NCBI GenBank assembly: GCA_013349695.1
Contig: DUZD01000003.1
Coordinates: forward strand, 1-32,711
Source of the DNA: Rhodospirillaceae bacterium
Lineage (GTDB): Bacteria; Pseudomonadota; Alphaproteobacteria; Rhodospirillales; 2-02-FULL-58-16
DNA length: 32,711 nt
Reading direction: 5' to 3'
Below are positions 1 through 32,711 of this stretch, piece after piece; position 1 is the first letter of the stretch; each line of letters begins with the position of its first letter. The notes beneath the pieces are model-generated. The model made no database searches. It worked only from the letters and a program-made list of their open reading frames with translations, and was not told where the DNA came from. The position numbers and the translations under genes were made by a program.

Positions 1-117
1 TCTCCCGGGGCGTCGAGAACGCTTGACGATGTACCCGCATCGCCGGCGCGTCCGCTCCTACCGGGAGAGCGGGAAAAGCGATCGTATGGGGTCAGGAATC
101 CCGCCGGGGTGTACTAG
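1..117 (-). repeat. Truncated (by window edge), diverged copy of the structured inverted-repeat element found at 32293-32564
   Basis: Positions 7-86 align to the reverse complement of 32325-32404 with roughly 12 mismatches in 80 nt (e.g. GGGGCGTCGAGAACGCTTGACGATGTACCCGCATCGCC vs GGGGCGTCGGGAACGCTTGACGATGTCCCTGCATCGCC, and identical CGGGAAAAGCGATCGTA). Stem TCTCCCGG (1-8)/CCGGGAGA (61-68). Ends with CTAG at 114-117, as in the other copy. Confidence 0.75.
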
Positions 118-27612: not shown

Positions 27613-30600
27613 TCAACGGTCTGGGTCGCCGTCGCGGATGGACTCGGCCAGGGCGTCGAGGATTTCCCGGAGCTTCGCCGGCAGGGCGCCGGGAACCGGG
27701 GGCGGGGGCTTGCCGTCGGCGACGGCGCGGAGGAAGGCGCCGACGGCGTCCAGGGGCGCCGGGTAGTCCGCCAGTCGGGCGAGGGCCTCGGCCGCGTCGG
27801 GCGGCAGGGCGCCGCCGCCACGGGCCTGGAAGGCCGCCTGGGCGAGGGCCAGGATCGCTTTCACCAGGTCGTCGGGCACGGCCCCGTCCTCGCCGCCACC
27901 CCGGCGTAGCCGCCCGATCTCCTCGACCTTGGTGTCATGCTTGGCTTGCCATTCGGCGGCGGCGGCGGTGTCGCCCCGGGCGCGGGCGATCTTGGCGAGG
28001 TTGCCGTAGTCCATGTATACGTCGGGGAGGCGGAGCGATTCGCAGATGGCGAGCGATTCGCGGGCGTTCCGCTCGGCCTCGTCCAGTTCGCCCAGCATGC
28101 GGTGGAGAACGCCGAGTTGAAAATGGGATTTCGCCGCGCCGGGGCGGTCGTTCATTTCCAGCACTATCGCCAAGCTTTCCCTTATGGAGTCGACCGCCCG
28201 GCGAAGCCAGGCCTCGCGCTCCCCAGGGTCCTTTGTCTGCTCGGCGCGATTCTGGTGAAGTATGCCGACATTGTGGGCGTTGGCGGCCAGTTGCCGCCGG
28301 TCATTGAGGCGCTTCGCCAGTTCCCGTGCGCGCCCATACCAGGCCTCCGCCACATCAAGCTGTCCGCGTTGCGCCTCCGCGTTGGCCAGCAAGTCGGCGG
28401 TTTGCATCTCTCCACCCGCATCGTCGGCCCGACGGAAGAACTCCAGCGCCTGCTGGTAGAGCGCGACGGCGCGGTCGAAGCGACCCTGCGCGCCGTGCAA
28501 GATTCCCTGGTGCTGAAGGAACGTCCCCTGTAGTTCGAGGTCGCCCGCGTCCCGGGCGGCGGCAAGCGCCTCGGTGTAGCGGGCATCGGCCTCCGCGTAA
28601 CGCTGCAGCCTTGTCAGGATGGTGGCTGCTCGTCCCAGACCGGCAGCCACCTCCCGGTCGTGGCCGAGGTCGCGTCTGATGGCGAGGCCGCGCTCGGAAG
28701 CCTCCAGGGCTTCATCGAAGCGCCCCAATTCCATCAGCGCGTTGGCGAGGTCGCCCAGGGCGGCCGCGAGATTGCCGCGCTGGGCCTCGCCGAGGCCTTC
28801 GAATTGGGCGATGGCCCTCCCGAGCGGCTCGAGCGCCCGGTCCGGGCGGCCATGGGAGTCAAGCAACCGGCCCAGATAAAGTTGGCTCAGCGCCAACTGT
28901 AACGCCGGATCCGCGCTGTCCGCCAGGCCTTCGTCCGCGAGCCTGCGAATCAGATCCTCCAGGGTGGCGATGGCCTCGTCCCCATGGCCCTGGGTGAAGC
29001 GGCTCCAGGCATGGTCCCGAATCGCCGCGCAGGCGGCCCCGTCCAGCGTCTCGTCCACCGGCATCCGCTCCCGCACCCAGGCCACCACTTCGTCCCGTTC
29101 GCGAGGCCGCCCGGCCATTTGCAGGAATGTCCGCAACGTGCCGGCCAACGCCTGACCCTCGGACCGGCCGCCACGCCGGAAGGCCCGGCGGATGGCGGCG
29201 CGGTAGTTGGCTTCCTCCAGGCTCATGCTCAGCATCGCGGCGGCGGGCTGGCCGCCCCGGAGCGCCTTGTCGGTCGCCCGCATATCGGCGAGGTAGACTC
29301 CGATGAAGCGCTTCTCGGTGGCCTCCGGGTCCGCAACGTCGGCCGCCCGGGCGGCGTGGGGCAGGGTCGGATGGAAGCGCAGAAAGGGGGTCGAAAAAAC
29401 CTCGACGGTCTCCACCCGCACCAAGGCCGTCGCCACCAGTTCCGCCCGCGTCGCTTCCCACGCCTCCGGGTCCAACTCCGCGAAAATGATGAACAACCCT
29501 TCGAACACACCGCCCCGGAACCAAGCGAGATAGGGCAGCGCCGCCTGGGCGGCCTCGCTGAGCCGGCGTTTGGAGAAGGCGAGCGAGGCAAGCAGCGACC
29601 TGTTGCGGCCCTCCGCCGCCGCCGCGTCGGCGAATTCCTCCAGCGGTTCGCCGAACTCTTCGCGGATTCGGTCCGGCGTCCGCGCCTTCAAATGGGGGGC
29701 GACCAGGGCGATGGAGAGGGGATGGTCGGCGAGGGCGTCGAGTAGCCGTTCCACCCGTTCCCGCTCGTAGCCCGGGCGGCCGGTGTCGATGGACTTGGCG
29801 TCGAGCACGGCGGCCAGCAGGTGCAGGCTGTCGGGGCGGGCGAGGCCCTCCAGGGCCACCTCCTTGATGGCGGGGAGCTCTGTTTCCTCCGGACGGCAGG
29901 TCACCAGCAAGCGGCCGAGGGGGGCGCCGTCGGTGAGGTCCCGGTAGAGCCGCGCCAGCCCTTGGCGCGCCTCGGCCGTGTAGACGCCCAGGCCGTCCGT
30001 GCCGCCGTCCGCCGCCTCTTCCCCTTCCTGGAACGCCGGCAGGGTGGATTCGAAGTTGTCCCAGACCAGCAAGACCCGGCGGGTCCTGAACAGCGCCACC
30101 GCCTGGCGCCATTGCTCCTCTTGCGGCAGCGCCGCGAAGCCTTCGTCCCCGAGGGCGGCGCCGATCCGCTGGGCCACCTGGTCCGCCCCCGCCCATTGTT
30201 CGAAGCTGACGAACACCGCCGCCTCGAAGCGGCCGGCGCGCAGCCACCACGCCGCCGCTTCCCGCGCCAGGGCCGTCTTGCCCATGCCCCCCATGGCGTG
30301 GAGCAGCACGGCGGGATGGTCGCGGAATTGCCGCTCCAGGGCCAGCAGTTCCCGAGCCCGTCCGTGGAAGCGGTACACCGGCGGCGGCGGAAATCCGTGA
30401 AGCCTTGCCGCCACGCCGGTCCGCGCCCACTCCCTTTCCGGTTCCGCCGCCGCGCCGGCGGTCAGCGCCGGGTCGTCTCCCACTTGGTAAAGCTGGGGAA
30501 TGAACCAGTCGTCCAGGTTCACCGTCTCGGCCTCGGGTCCCAGGTGCAGCCAGCGCGCCCGGTTTGCGTGCAAGGCCCGGCGGGCCTCGGCGAGGGCCTC

Positions 30601-32001
30601 GCCGACACTCATGCCGGCGGCCAACTCGCCATAGAAGCGCTCGACCAGCAGGCGCGCCGCCTCCACGTGCACCGAATGGCTGAAGGCGACGACGCTCCCG
30701 ACGCCGCTGTTGAGCAGGGCCGGCGCCACCGAGCCGAACACCGGCCGGTCGGCGAGGTCGGCGCTACGGCAAGCCTCCAGCAGCACCAGCGGCACGCCCT
30801 GTCTCACCATCAGGTCGCCGAGGCGGGGTCCCGCGATCAGGTCGGTAGTGGCCGCGCCGTCCTCGAAGGCCAGGGCGCCGACGCCGGTCCTCGGCAGATA
30901 GGTGCCGTGGCCGTCGAAATGGACGATATGGAAGGGCTTGCCGTTCTTGCGCGCCTCGGAAACCTGCTTCTCGAGCTGTCCGAAGGTGGGCGGCTCGCAG
31001 AATTCGAGATCAAGCTGGCCGGGACCCAGGGCCTCGAGGGCGTCGAGCATGGGCGCGATGCTGTCGCGCGGGTCGAGGAATCCGGTGTCGGTGGGCCGGC
31101 TGACGATCGACAGAACCCGGAGCGGCAGGCCAAGCTCGGGTGTTCGGGTCTCGCCGGACTCGCGAAGCTGGCGGCGGAGGCTTACCCCCTGGAAGGTCAA
31201 TGGGCGGTCCTCGGCGTCGCGCAGCATCTCCCAGGGCTGGCCGAGGACCTCGGCGTCGTCGCTGGCCAGCGTCAGCAGCACCGGCCGGCCGTGGGCGACG
31301 GCCTTGGCCAGGTCGCCATGAACCTCCCCACCGGTTCGGTTGTCGAACAGGGCCTCGAATAGTTCCCCGCCCCATCGTGAAAGACAGGACTCCAAACCCT
31401 TGGCGCGCACCCGGTCGCCGGCGCCGGGAAACTGCGGGTAGGTTTCCAGGTACCAACGAAGCTCCTCCAGGCCCTTGCCGTCGAGGGGCAGGGCAAGCTC
31501 GAATGGCGGTGCGTGCCAGCGGCCCATCGGCGCGCCGTCCTTGCTCTCGACCACGAGGCGGGCGTGATAGGGCGGGCGACGGATGCGCGCCCCAGCGGTG
31601 GGCGCGCCCACATGCTTCCGTATGGCCGTCAGCAGCTTCGTCAGCCCGGCGTCGTAGTCGTCCCTGAAATCGGCGTGGCTTTTGTCGCGCAGCAATCGCG
31701 GAATGTCGCAGTCCTCGATCAGGACCGGGACGATGTGAACCTTCCGGCTGGTGGCCTCGTCCGCGATATGGGCCTGCCACTCCTTCTCCACCCAGCCCGA
31801 CCGGACACTTTTCCGGGACAGCACAAGAACGAGAAGGTCCGAGTCATCGAGCCCCAATTGGATGTTTTGCGCGATGGAATCGCCCGGCAGAATTTCGTCG
31901 TCGTCGAGCCAAACGCCGATGCCTTCCGCCTTCAGATCATCGGCGAGGCGCGTGACGAGCAACTTGTCGCTGCTGGAGTGAGAGAGAAAGACTCTGGGCA
32001 T
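27613..32001 (-). CDS. TIR - CHAT - STAND/NB-ARC-like NTPase - TPR multidomain protein (putative immune/defence effector)
   Basis: TIR: MPRVFLSHSSSDKLLVTRLADDLKAEGIGVWLDDDEILPGDSI...SGWVEKEW (Glu74 candidate). CHAT: HIVHFDGHG (H365) and VLLEACRS (C411). NTPase: LHAMGGMGKTALA (Walker A ~aa 571-577), RRVLLVWDNFE (Walker B-like). C-terminal TPR-like helices. SD GGGGGAAGGG precedes the ATG. Confidence 0.93.
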   Translation of the reverse strand: MPRVFLSHSSSDKLLVTRLADDLKAEGIGVWLDDDEILPGDSIAQNIQLGLDDSDLLVLVLSRKSVRSGWVEKEWQAHIADEATSRKVHIVPVLIEDCDIPRLLRDKSHADFRDDYDAGLTKLLTAIRKHVGAPTAGARIRRPPYHARLVVESKDGAPMGRWHAPPFELALPLDGKGLEELRWYLETYPQFPGAGDRVRAKGLESCLSRWGGELFEALFDNRTGGEVHGDLAKAVAHGRPVLLTLASDDAEVLGQPWEMLRDAEDRPLTFQGVSLRRQLRESGETRTPELGLPLRVLSIVSRPTDTGFLDPRDSIAPMLDALEALGPGQLDLEFCEPPTFGQLEKQVSEARKNGKPFHIVHFDGHGTYLPRTGVGALAFEDGAATTDLIAGPRLGDLMVRQGVPLVLLEACRSADLADRPVFGSVAPALLNSGVGSVVAFSHSVHVEAARLLVERFYGELAAGMSVGEALAEARRALHANRARWLHLGPEAETVNLDDWFIPQLYQVGDDPALTAGAAAEPEREWARTGVAARLHGFPPPPVYRFHGRARELLALERQFRDHPAVLLHAMGGMGKTALAREAAAWWLRAGRFEAAVFVSFEQWAGADQVAQRIGAALGDEGFAALPQEEQWRQAVALFRTRRVLLVWDNFESTLPAFQEGEEAADGGTDGLGVYTAEARQGLARLYRDLTDGAPLGRLLVTCRPEETELPAIKEVALEGLARPDSLHLLAAVLDAKSIDTGRPGYERERVERLLDALADHPLSIALVAPHLKARTPDRIREEFGEPLEEFADAAAAEGRNRSLLASLAFSKRRLSEAAQAALPYLAWFRGGVFEGLFIIFAELDPEAWEATRAELVATALVRVETVEVFSTPFLRFHPTLPHAARAADVADPEATEKRFIGVYLADMRATDKALRGGQPAAAMLSMSLEEANYRAAIRRAFRRGGRSEGQALAGTLRTFLQMAGRPRERDEVVAWVRERMPVDETLDGAACAAIRDHAWSRFTQGHGDEAIATLEDLIRRLADEGLADSADPALQLALSQLYLGRLLDSHGRPDRALEPLGRAIAQFEGLGEAQRGNLAAALGDLANALMELGRFDEALEASERGLAIRRDLGHDREVAAGLGRAATILTRLQRYAEADARYTEALAAARDAGDLELQGTFLQHQGILHGAQGRFDRAVALYQQALEFFRRADDAGGEMQTADLLANAEAQRGQLDVAEAWYGRARELAKRLNDRRQLAANAHNVGILHQNRAEQTKDPGEREAWLRRAVDSIRESLAIVLEMNDRPGAAKSHFQLGVLHRMLGELDEAERNARESLAICESLRLPDVYMDYGNLAKIARARGDTAAAAEWQAKHDTKVEEIGRLRRGGGEDGAVPDDLVKAILALAQAAFQARGGGALPPDAAEALARLADYPAPLDAVGAFLRAVADGKPPPPVPGALPAKLREILDALAESIRDGDPDR

Positions 32002-32292: not shown

Positions 32293-32564
32293 TCTAGTGG
32301 CCCGCGTCAGCCAAATTGCACCCCTACGATCGCTTTTCCCGTTTCCTCGGCAGAAGGGGGCGCGCAGGCGATGCAGGGACATCGTCAAGCGTTCCCGACG
32401 CCCCGAGGGGACGGGAAAAGCGACCCTTCGGGCGGTCTTGCGAGGCTTCCAGACGTCGTCGCGTGCCGCTTGTGGTGCACAGACACCACGGCGCAACGCG
32501 CTCCTAGCCGGAAACCTCGCAAGACCGTCGTAGGGGTGCAATTTGGCTGACGCGGGCCACTAGA
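32293..32564. repeat. Structured inverted-repeat element (multi-stem, MITE- or ncRNA-like)
   Basis: 37-bp perfect terminal repeats TCTAGTGGCCCGCGTCAGCCAAATTGCACCCCTACGA (32293-32329) / reverse complement (32528-32564). Internal stems 32330-32350/32403-32423 (19 of 21 paired) and 32433-32450/32510-32527 (17 of 18 paired). Confidence 0.92.
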
Positions 32565-32711
32565 ACGTCAATGCCTACGACAGCCGGCTGAAGGGATGGG
32601 TGCAAAGGTTCAACGGAGTGGCGACCAGATACCTGGACAGCTATCTGGGTTGGCGACGGTTCTTTGAGCGTCATAAGGAAGAGGCGACCAATCCAAAATC
32701 ATGGTTGATCG
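32565..32711 (+). pseudogene. 3' part of a transposase ORF (IS1595/ISXO2-like C-terminus), truncated by window end and by the preceding element
   Basis: Translation [49 protein letters not shown]; in-frame TAG immediately upstream (32561-32563). Confidence 0.6.

Follow-up and report, generated by a model that had tools for sequence, protein, structure and literature searches.

A miniature transposable element with IS630-type ends and two inward-facing folded modules that may act as RNA on host transcription

Results

A truncated and an intact copy in one contig

The window analysed here (32,711 nt) is the complete contig C3 of genome G000, an alphaproteobacterial metagenome-assembled genome (MAG) of 2.28 Mb in 255 contigs. 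Two copies of one inverted-repeat element lie in it, a truncated copy, within which the contig start falls, and an intact copy close to the contig end (Table 1). Each intact element consists of two homologous folded modules, B and C, between outer arms that resemble the ends of IS630-type insertion sequences. The element is interpreted as a miniature inverted-repeat transposable element (MITE) that is moved by IS630 and whose inward-reading modules may act as RNA on host transcription; the probability of this explanation is put at roughly 0.55. Genomes, contigs and loci are cited by G, C and L numbers. The alignments are the author's own, and most carrier genomes are drafts in which repeats break contigs.

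Positions 7-86 resemble the reverse complement of 32325-32404, as a sequence-only reading of the window had stated, with 68 of 80 bases identical (85%; blastn E 7.8e-21). The module covariance model scored the two window copies at 67.9-94.6 bits, so the match is not by chance. The intact copy (32294-32563) has a folding energy of -199.8 kcal/mol, compared with -110 for shuffled sequences (z -17.7). Stems and two-sided base changes between the copies were found as that reading described them. Two sites that it took for C-A mismatches in the intact copy are T-G (G-U) pairs on the folded strand and thus support folding.

The arms of the intact copy (32294-32329 and 32528-32563) form a perfect 36-nt inverted repeat. 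For the arm at 82-117, which had been quoted correctly, a partner upstream of the window had been predicted; the predicted sequence is exactly the reverse complement of the arm. It occurs without mismatch in the sister copies L019 and L028, and with one mismatch (35/36) in the intact copy L023. L019 lies at the end of contig C90, which has an exact 83-bp overlap with the window start and the predicted arm letter for letter. A join of C90 to C3 is possible, C90 being one of several candidate contig ends; as at least five further contig ends in the same genome share the repeat, the join is neither unique nor proven. The assembly probably broke at the start of C3 on account of the repeat.

Table 1. 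Parts of the two element copies in the window (TIR, terminal inverted repeat; R1, covariance model of the module).
Feature	Position	Strand	Remarks
Truncated copy, module B	1..81	(-), sense = minus	3' part lost at contig start; cmsearch R1 67.9 bits, E 6.8e-14
Truncated copy, outer arm (TIR + CTAG)	82..117		IS630 end type TAGTACACCCCGGCGGGATTCCTGACC
Truncated copy, outer-end TA within CTAG	115..116		presumed duplicated target; TA duplication seen at empty sites of sister copies
Intact copy, left arm (TIR), type TAGTGGCCCGCGTCAGCCAAATTG	32294..32329		matches TIR of the IS630 element in L163
Intact copy, module B, 94 nt	32330..32423	(+), inward sense	cmsearch R1: plus 94.6 bits, minus 39.3 bits
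Intact copy, spacer CCCTTCGGG, 3-bp mini-hairpin	32424..32432	(+)	form CCCnnnGGG kept across copies
Intact copy, module C, 95 nt, homologue of B	32433..32527	(-), inward sense	cmsearch R1: minus 84.7 bits, plus 33.3 bits
Intact copy, right arm (TIR), CTAG at its end	32528..32563		inverted repeat with left arm

One fold, present twice and covarying

Modules B and C are homologues of 94-95 nt that present one fold twice, head to head. With B read on the plus strand in B-first orientation and C on the opposite strand, they align over 95 columns (alignment A1), the sole internal gaps being one-base differences in loops and bulges. The fold starts with an outer stem of about 21 bp, followed by an internal loop (YA-G-GA / GA-C-GMC), a second stem (8-9 bp), a small internal loop that has AA on the 3' side, and a hairpin. 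Invariant in A1 are G20, A23, G24, G25, A69 and C70, in or beside the internal loops, and G41 and T43 in the top helix. The outer stem is closed by G-C in B and by C-G in C. Such a pattern, with internal loops conserved and helices free to vary, is typical of catalytic folds and of sites bound by a conserved partner.

Among 48 diverse modules, 96.6% of cells are paired and two-sided changes occur at 32 of the 36 pairs. Two-sided changes were counted in 489 cells; shuffling reduced this number to 154, and sliding the partner to 58-99. The proposal that folding rather than primary sequence is conserved holds for a dispersed structured family and its internal modules; the outer arm, which had been included in it, is not mainly such a stem but an IS630-type TIR (see below). 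It is the two internal modules, a homologous pair inverted relative to each other and folding on the inward strand, that give the conserved-fold signal.

At gathering score, the window gave 0 hits in Rfam 15, and a permissive Rfam search of ten element loci returned only hits far below gathering scores. A K-turn was considered for the tandem G-A beside the stem, but 4 extra nt on the 3' strand do not fit the canonical form.

Strand sense and inward orientation

On the inward-reading strand, G-U cells outnumber A-C cells by 185:23 in B and by 209:16 in C. For pairs predicted from both strands the ratios are 85:22 (B) and 86:13 (C), and for the outer arms, which served as control, 93:57. Double-stranded DNA or palindrome repair alone would make G-T and A-C equally frequent on each strand. 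A mutational strand bias is unable to account for both modules, which are read from opposite strands.

After a non-member at L081:5753 was set aside, 173 of 174 modules read inward, and module pairs in distant genomes do so throughout. The single-strand fold on the inward strand is very likely under selection. Only at L010 (1641-1777) is the interior of B inverted inside its palindromic stem, so that the module points outward.

Element plan and distribution

A search with the intact copy located the family at about 40 places in the source genome. Full copies measure 262-274 bp, and more where secondary inserts are present. All are built alike: between a TA at either end lie a ~34-nt arm, module B, the 9-nt spacer, reversed module C and the complementary arm; most copies end in CTAG. 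No open reading frame is conserved across copies, and neither an intrinsic terminator nor a promoter was found inside the element. A small open reading frame in the modules (AGGA..ATG/GTG) was rejected; its frames, lengths and stops vary, and the start triplet is missing from some distant copies. Where a gene end faces an element, the stop codon lies on the terminal TA(G) of the element in 15 of 53 cases, as expected because CTAG is the target.

A pattern search for module C yielded another 76 stretches. Each came from a marine MAG with the label Rhodospirillales, Rhodospirillaceae or Proteobacteria. The same pattern matched none of the viral contigs searched, and blastn gave no match to the element in plasmid and phage collections, so the family appears to be chromosomal. 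In a sample of the class, model R1 detected modules in 30 of 289 genomes (26 of 224 genera); in a phylum sample it did so in 13 of 399, 4 of them outside Alphaproteobacteria. Distant copies (e.g. L179, L183, L194, L196) have the full plan and length with wholly different ends.

Outer arms resemble IS630 transposon ends

Arms are 93% identical within a copy and only 42% identical between copies (90 distinct copies). Judged by sequence, the outer arm is best described as the TIR of an IS630-type element, not mainly as a fold-conserved stem. For each of four arm families, an IS630-family insertion sequence with a transposase gene was found whose TIRs match the arms over 11-27 bp; all four transposases score above the cut-off of NCBIfam NF033545 (IS630). 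One of these insertion sequences, with a DDE_3 transposase, adjoins an element copy in the source genome (L108; ends CTAGTACMGCCCAGCG..CCTGACC). Its ends equal the arm type of the MITE copy L027 and are near those of L023 and of 82-117 in the window, which is assigned to the same end type. Elements with the other three end families were found in relatives: L163 (end CTAGTGGCCTGWATCAMYTAAAT, GTGGCCTG type, the arm type of the intact window copy), L153 (ends CTAGTGTCCTG..GAAGTTT, GTGTCCTG type) and L158 (ends TAATACCAA..TGAC, TAATACC type). That the two window copies have strongly different outer arms and yet the same CTAG had been observed correctly. The cause lies in the use of different IS630 ends, the arms being transposase sites and CTAG the IS630 target, rather than in folding.

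Empty sites were found by searching joined element flanks against a same-genus genome (G001). They contain a single TA and occupied sites two, most cleanly at L026, L012 and L029. At L221 of G001, the empty site of L002, the junction retains ten bases (AGTGGCCCGC) from the start of the L002 arm, perhaps as a deletion or excision remnant. IS630 and ISY100 insert at TA and duplicate it, and IS630 prefers CTAG (PMC2170065; for the CTAG/TA target of IS630, Tenzen and Ohtsubo 1991, as cited there). The present element shares TIRs with IS630 insertion sequences, duplicates TA, prefers CTAG, and is short (267-274 bp), non-coding and multicopy. From its sequence features it is very probably a MITE mobilised by IS630.

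At least four different IS630 end families flank the same core. When mapped on a core tree, the end-family labels need at least 15 changes, compared with a minimum of 7 and with 41 for shuffled labels, and some changes are forced by strongly supported branches. This excess argues that a persisting core has switched ends several times. The interior of a MITE usually, though not obligatorily, arises from a parent insertion sequence by deletion. Here, a search of the IS630 elements in L108, L153, L158 and L163 with model R1 detected no core module inside them, and the interior is therefore no deletion product of these four. The absence of modules from these elements also means that the transposase does not need the core.

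Discussion

Proposed action on incoming transcripts

According to the explanation preferred here, an IS630 transposase acting in trans would recognise TIRs of about 27 bp, excise the element and insert it at TA, usually within CTAG, with duplication of TA. Ends would have been exchanged repeatedly between IS630 families while the core was retained. The fold itself would act as RNA. A polymerase entering from either flank would transcribe a sense module first, which could fold at once and be recognised by a conserved host RNA-handling factor, most likely RNA polymerase/Nus/Rho or an RNase. The core is common to several transposases, which argues that its partner is not any one transposase and makes a host factor the best guess. 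Recognition might alter elongation, termination or processing of the read-through transcript. Insertions near genes would thereby be tolerable, and the core would be kept whichever transposase moves the element. Given mobility and a selected fold, action on incoming RNA is somewhat favoured.

Several points weigh against this explanation. Expression of the elements and any effect on transcription are predictions. The G-U and A-C counts are cells and not independent events, and the flipped B of L010 is a module that reads outward. The arm matches to IS630 ends are short, and recognition of the arms by the transposases is a prediction. No IS630 transposase was found in several carriers (e.g. G001, G004, G011 and G017, which are draft assemblies). 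Neighbouring genes, from crude gene calls, show no clear orientation preference, although a lack of direction bias is compatible, as weak evidence, with a symmetric device.

Alternative explanations

The fold might instead work as DNA, as an inward-strand cruciform or single-stranded hairpin that is bound by a host or transposition protein and aids excision, synapsis or replication-coupled movement. Integron attC sites and REP hairpins are examples of folded DNA recognised by protein. The element is itself a DNA transposon, the geometry of the modules is fixed relative to its ends, G-T is the milder mismatch in DNA too, and REP dimers are likewise arranged in opposite orientation (PMC3733652). 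Movement of the IS630 family, however, is double-strand cut-and-paste for which ends and transposase suffice in vitro (PMC2170065), and the core, being missing from the four IS630 elements examined, is dispensable for the transposase. A wobble excess of 8-13:1 that is strand-specific on opposite strands is most simply accounted for by RNA. A DNA fold is therefore considered unlikely, though it is the strongest competitor.

Less probable still is a plain MITE without function, the long palindromes of which are kept by template-switch correction (quasi-palindrome repair). Long stem-loops are common in MITEs (PMC2229807, PMC10969869), such correction yields two-sided changes, and the arms are nearly perfect. 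Yet correction has no strand sense, whereas G-U far exceeds A-C in the modules and only weakly in the arms. Nor would it be expected to leave internal-loop letters invariant (G20, A23, G24, G25, G41, T43, A69 and C70 in A1), to preserve an orientation that the stems would permit to flip, or to let the architecture last across Alphaproteobacteria and beyond.

Self-cleavage is a further possibility: each module might be a small ribozyme that cuts incoming read-through transcripts, as HDV-like ribozymes do in R2 elements. The rod-like fold with two conserved internal loops, the inward direction at both ends and the lack of coding capacity would fit. However, no Rfam ribozyme model matches at gathering score (0 hits), the permissive search gave one ribozyme match, Twister-P5 in L146 (E 4.1), which is not within the element, and a cleavage site is not apparent, which makes a ribozyme very improbable. 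An origin as a REP/REPIN-type element moved by a Y1 (RAYT) transposase is hardly credible: palindromes are paired in opposite orientation and G000 has Y1 transposase genes, but the units are 94-95 nt instead of 20-40 nt, there is no fixed GTAG or CGTC foot (column 22 of A1 is C or T), no Y1_Tnp (PF01797) match was found in G004, G008 and G009, the three genomes with the largest numbers of first-look candidates and with many copies, and IS630 ends with TA duplication fit instead.

Relation to known elements

As a mobile element, the family is of the same kind as RUP of Streptococcus pneumoniae, the classic IS630-linked MITE. RUP is also small, non-coding and present in high copy number, with TA ends and IS630-Spn1-like TIRs (PMC2229807). 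It differs in being about 107 bp long, in having one insertion-sequence partner and in forming a simple stem-loop, and conserved internal modules are not reported for it; the present element has one core between several unrelated IS630 ends and two homologous covarying modules. Nezha and Correia/NEMIS are TA-ended MITEs that are likewise small, non-coding and of high copy number (PMC2229807). IS630 itself, of the Tc1/mariner superfamily, shares ends, CTAG/TA target and TA duplication (PMC2170065). The present element, in contrast, has no transposase gene, and its modules are missing from the IS630 elements examined.

CIR of Caulobacter and Brucella (Chen and Shapiro 2003, as given in PMC2229807) is alphaproteobacterial and intergenic too, with a two-arm and linker RNA model, TA termini and conservation between species. 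In the account given there, CIR is about 110 bp long, lacks a TIR and has a conserved GANTC. The present element is 270 bp long with 34-bp TIRs and is depleted in GANTC (0.23 per element, compared with 0.76 in shuffled sequence); membership in CIR was rejected for length, TIR and this depletion. REP/REPIN elements (BIME) with RAYT, and the CGTC-tagged alphaproteobacterial REPs, also consist of dispersed palindromic units in opposite orientation that possibly act as RNA (PMC3733652). They differ in unit length, tag and transposase, and the present element needs no dedicated RAYT.

No description of the element was found in the open literature, which is no proof of novelty since most subscription papers lay outside the search. 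New are the pairing of a conserved module, its strand signature, the way in which ends have been exchanged, and how widely the family is spread. Bacterial MITEs are usually viewed as empty leftovers of insertion sequences. In the present element, conservation is higher in the interior than at the ends and covariation is strand-specific, so the core seems to be selected independently of any one transposase. More tentatively, the core might be a portable structured-RNA cargo that repeatedly exchanges transposon ends and acts on host transcription so that insertions are harmless. If so, it would represent an RNA fold not described before, of which each element carries two oppositely oriented copies so that one is read in sense from either side, and which acts by anti-polarity, antitermination, processing or self-cleavage and is conserved across Alphaproteobacteria and sparsely beyond. 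A transposon that carries an RNA module so as to be tolerated would be a case open to test, and the module family, so far uncharted, offers a great number of natural variants on which structure and function can be studied.

Variant copies and neighbouring sequences

A G/C-rich palindrome of about 60 nt (GGGGGGCCACCGGGGGG...) lies inside modules of L038, L050, L062, L067, L081, L103 and others, at a similar module position in several species and in B and C alike. A different insert, of about 42 nt, is present in the B module of L006, L011, L012, L024 and L025. At L022, L078, L101 and L027, one complete module (B or C), or one that is partly deleted, is located between the arms; these copies are probably hairpin deletions. 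A separate small inverted-repeat element at L081 (5754-6006) has CTAGCCCGGATATTTCATGAAGG ends, which resemble the ends of L183/L190, and an unrelated interior of about 210 bp.

Directly to the right of the intact window copy, 32567-32711 encodes the C-terminal part of an IS1595-type transposase up to the contig end (NF033547, 31 bits, E 2e-7, below cut-off), and the copy may have inserted into this other insertion sequence. The intact copy lies upstream of a gene on the minus strand (27613-32001) for a 1462-aa protein with TIR_2, CHAT, NB-ARC/NACHT and TPR domains, which is likely a defence or signalling protein.
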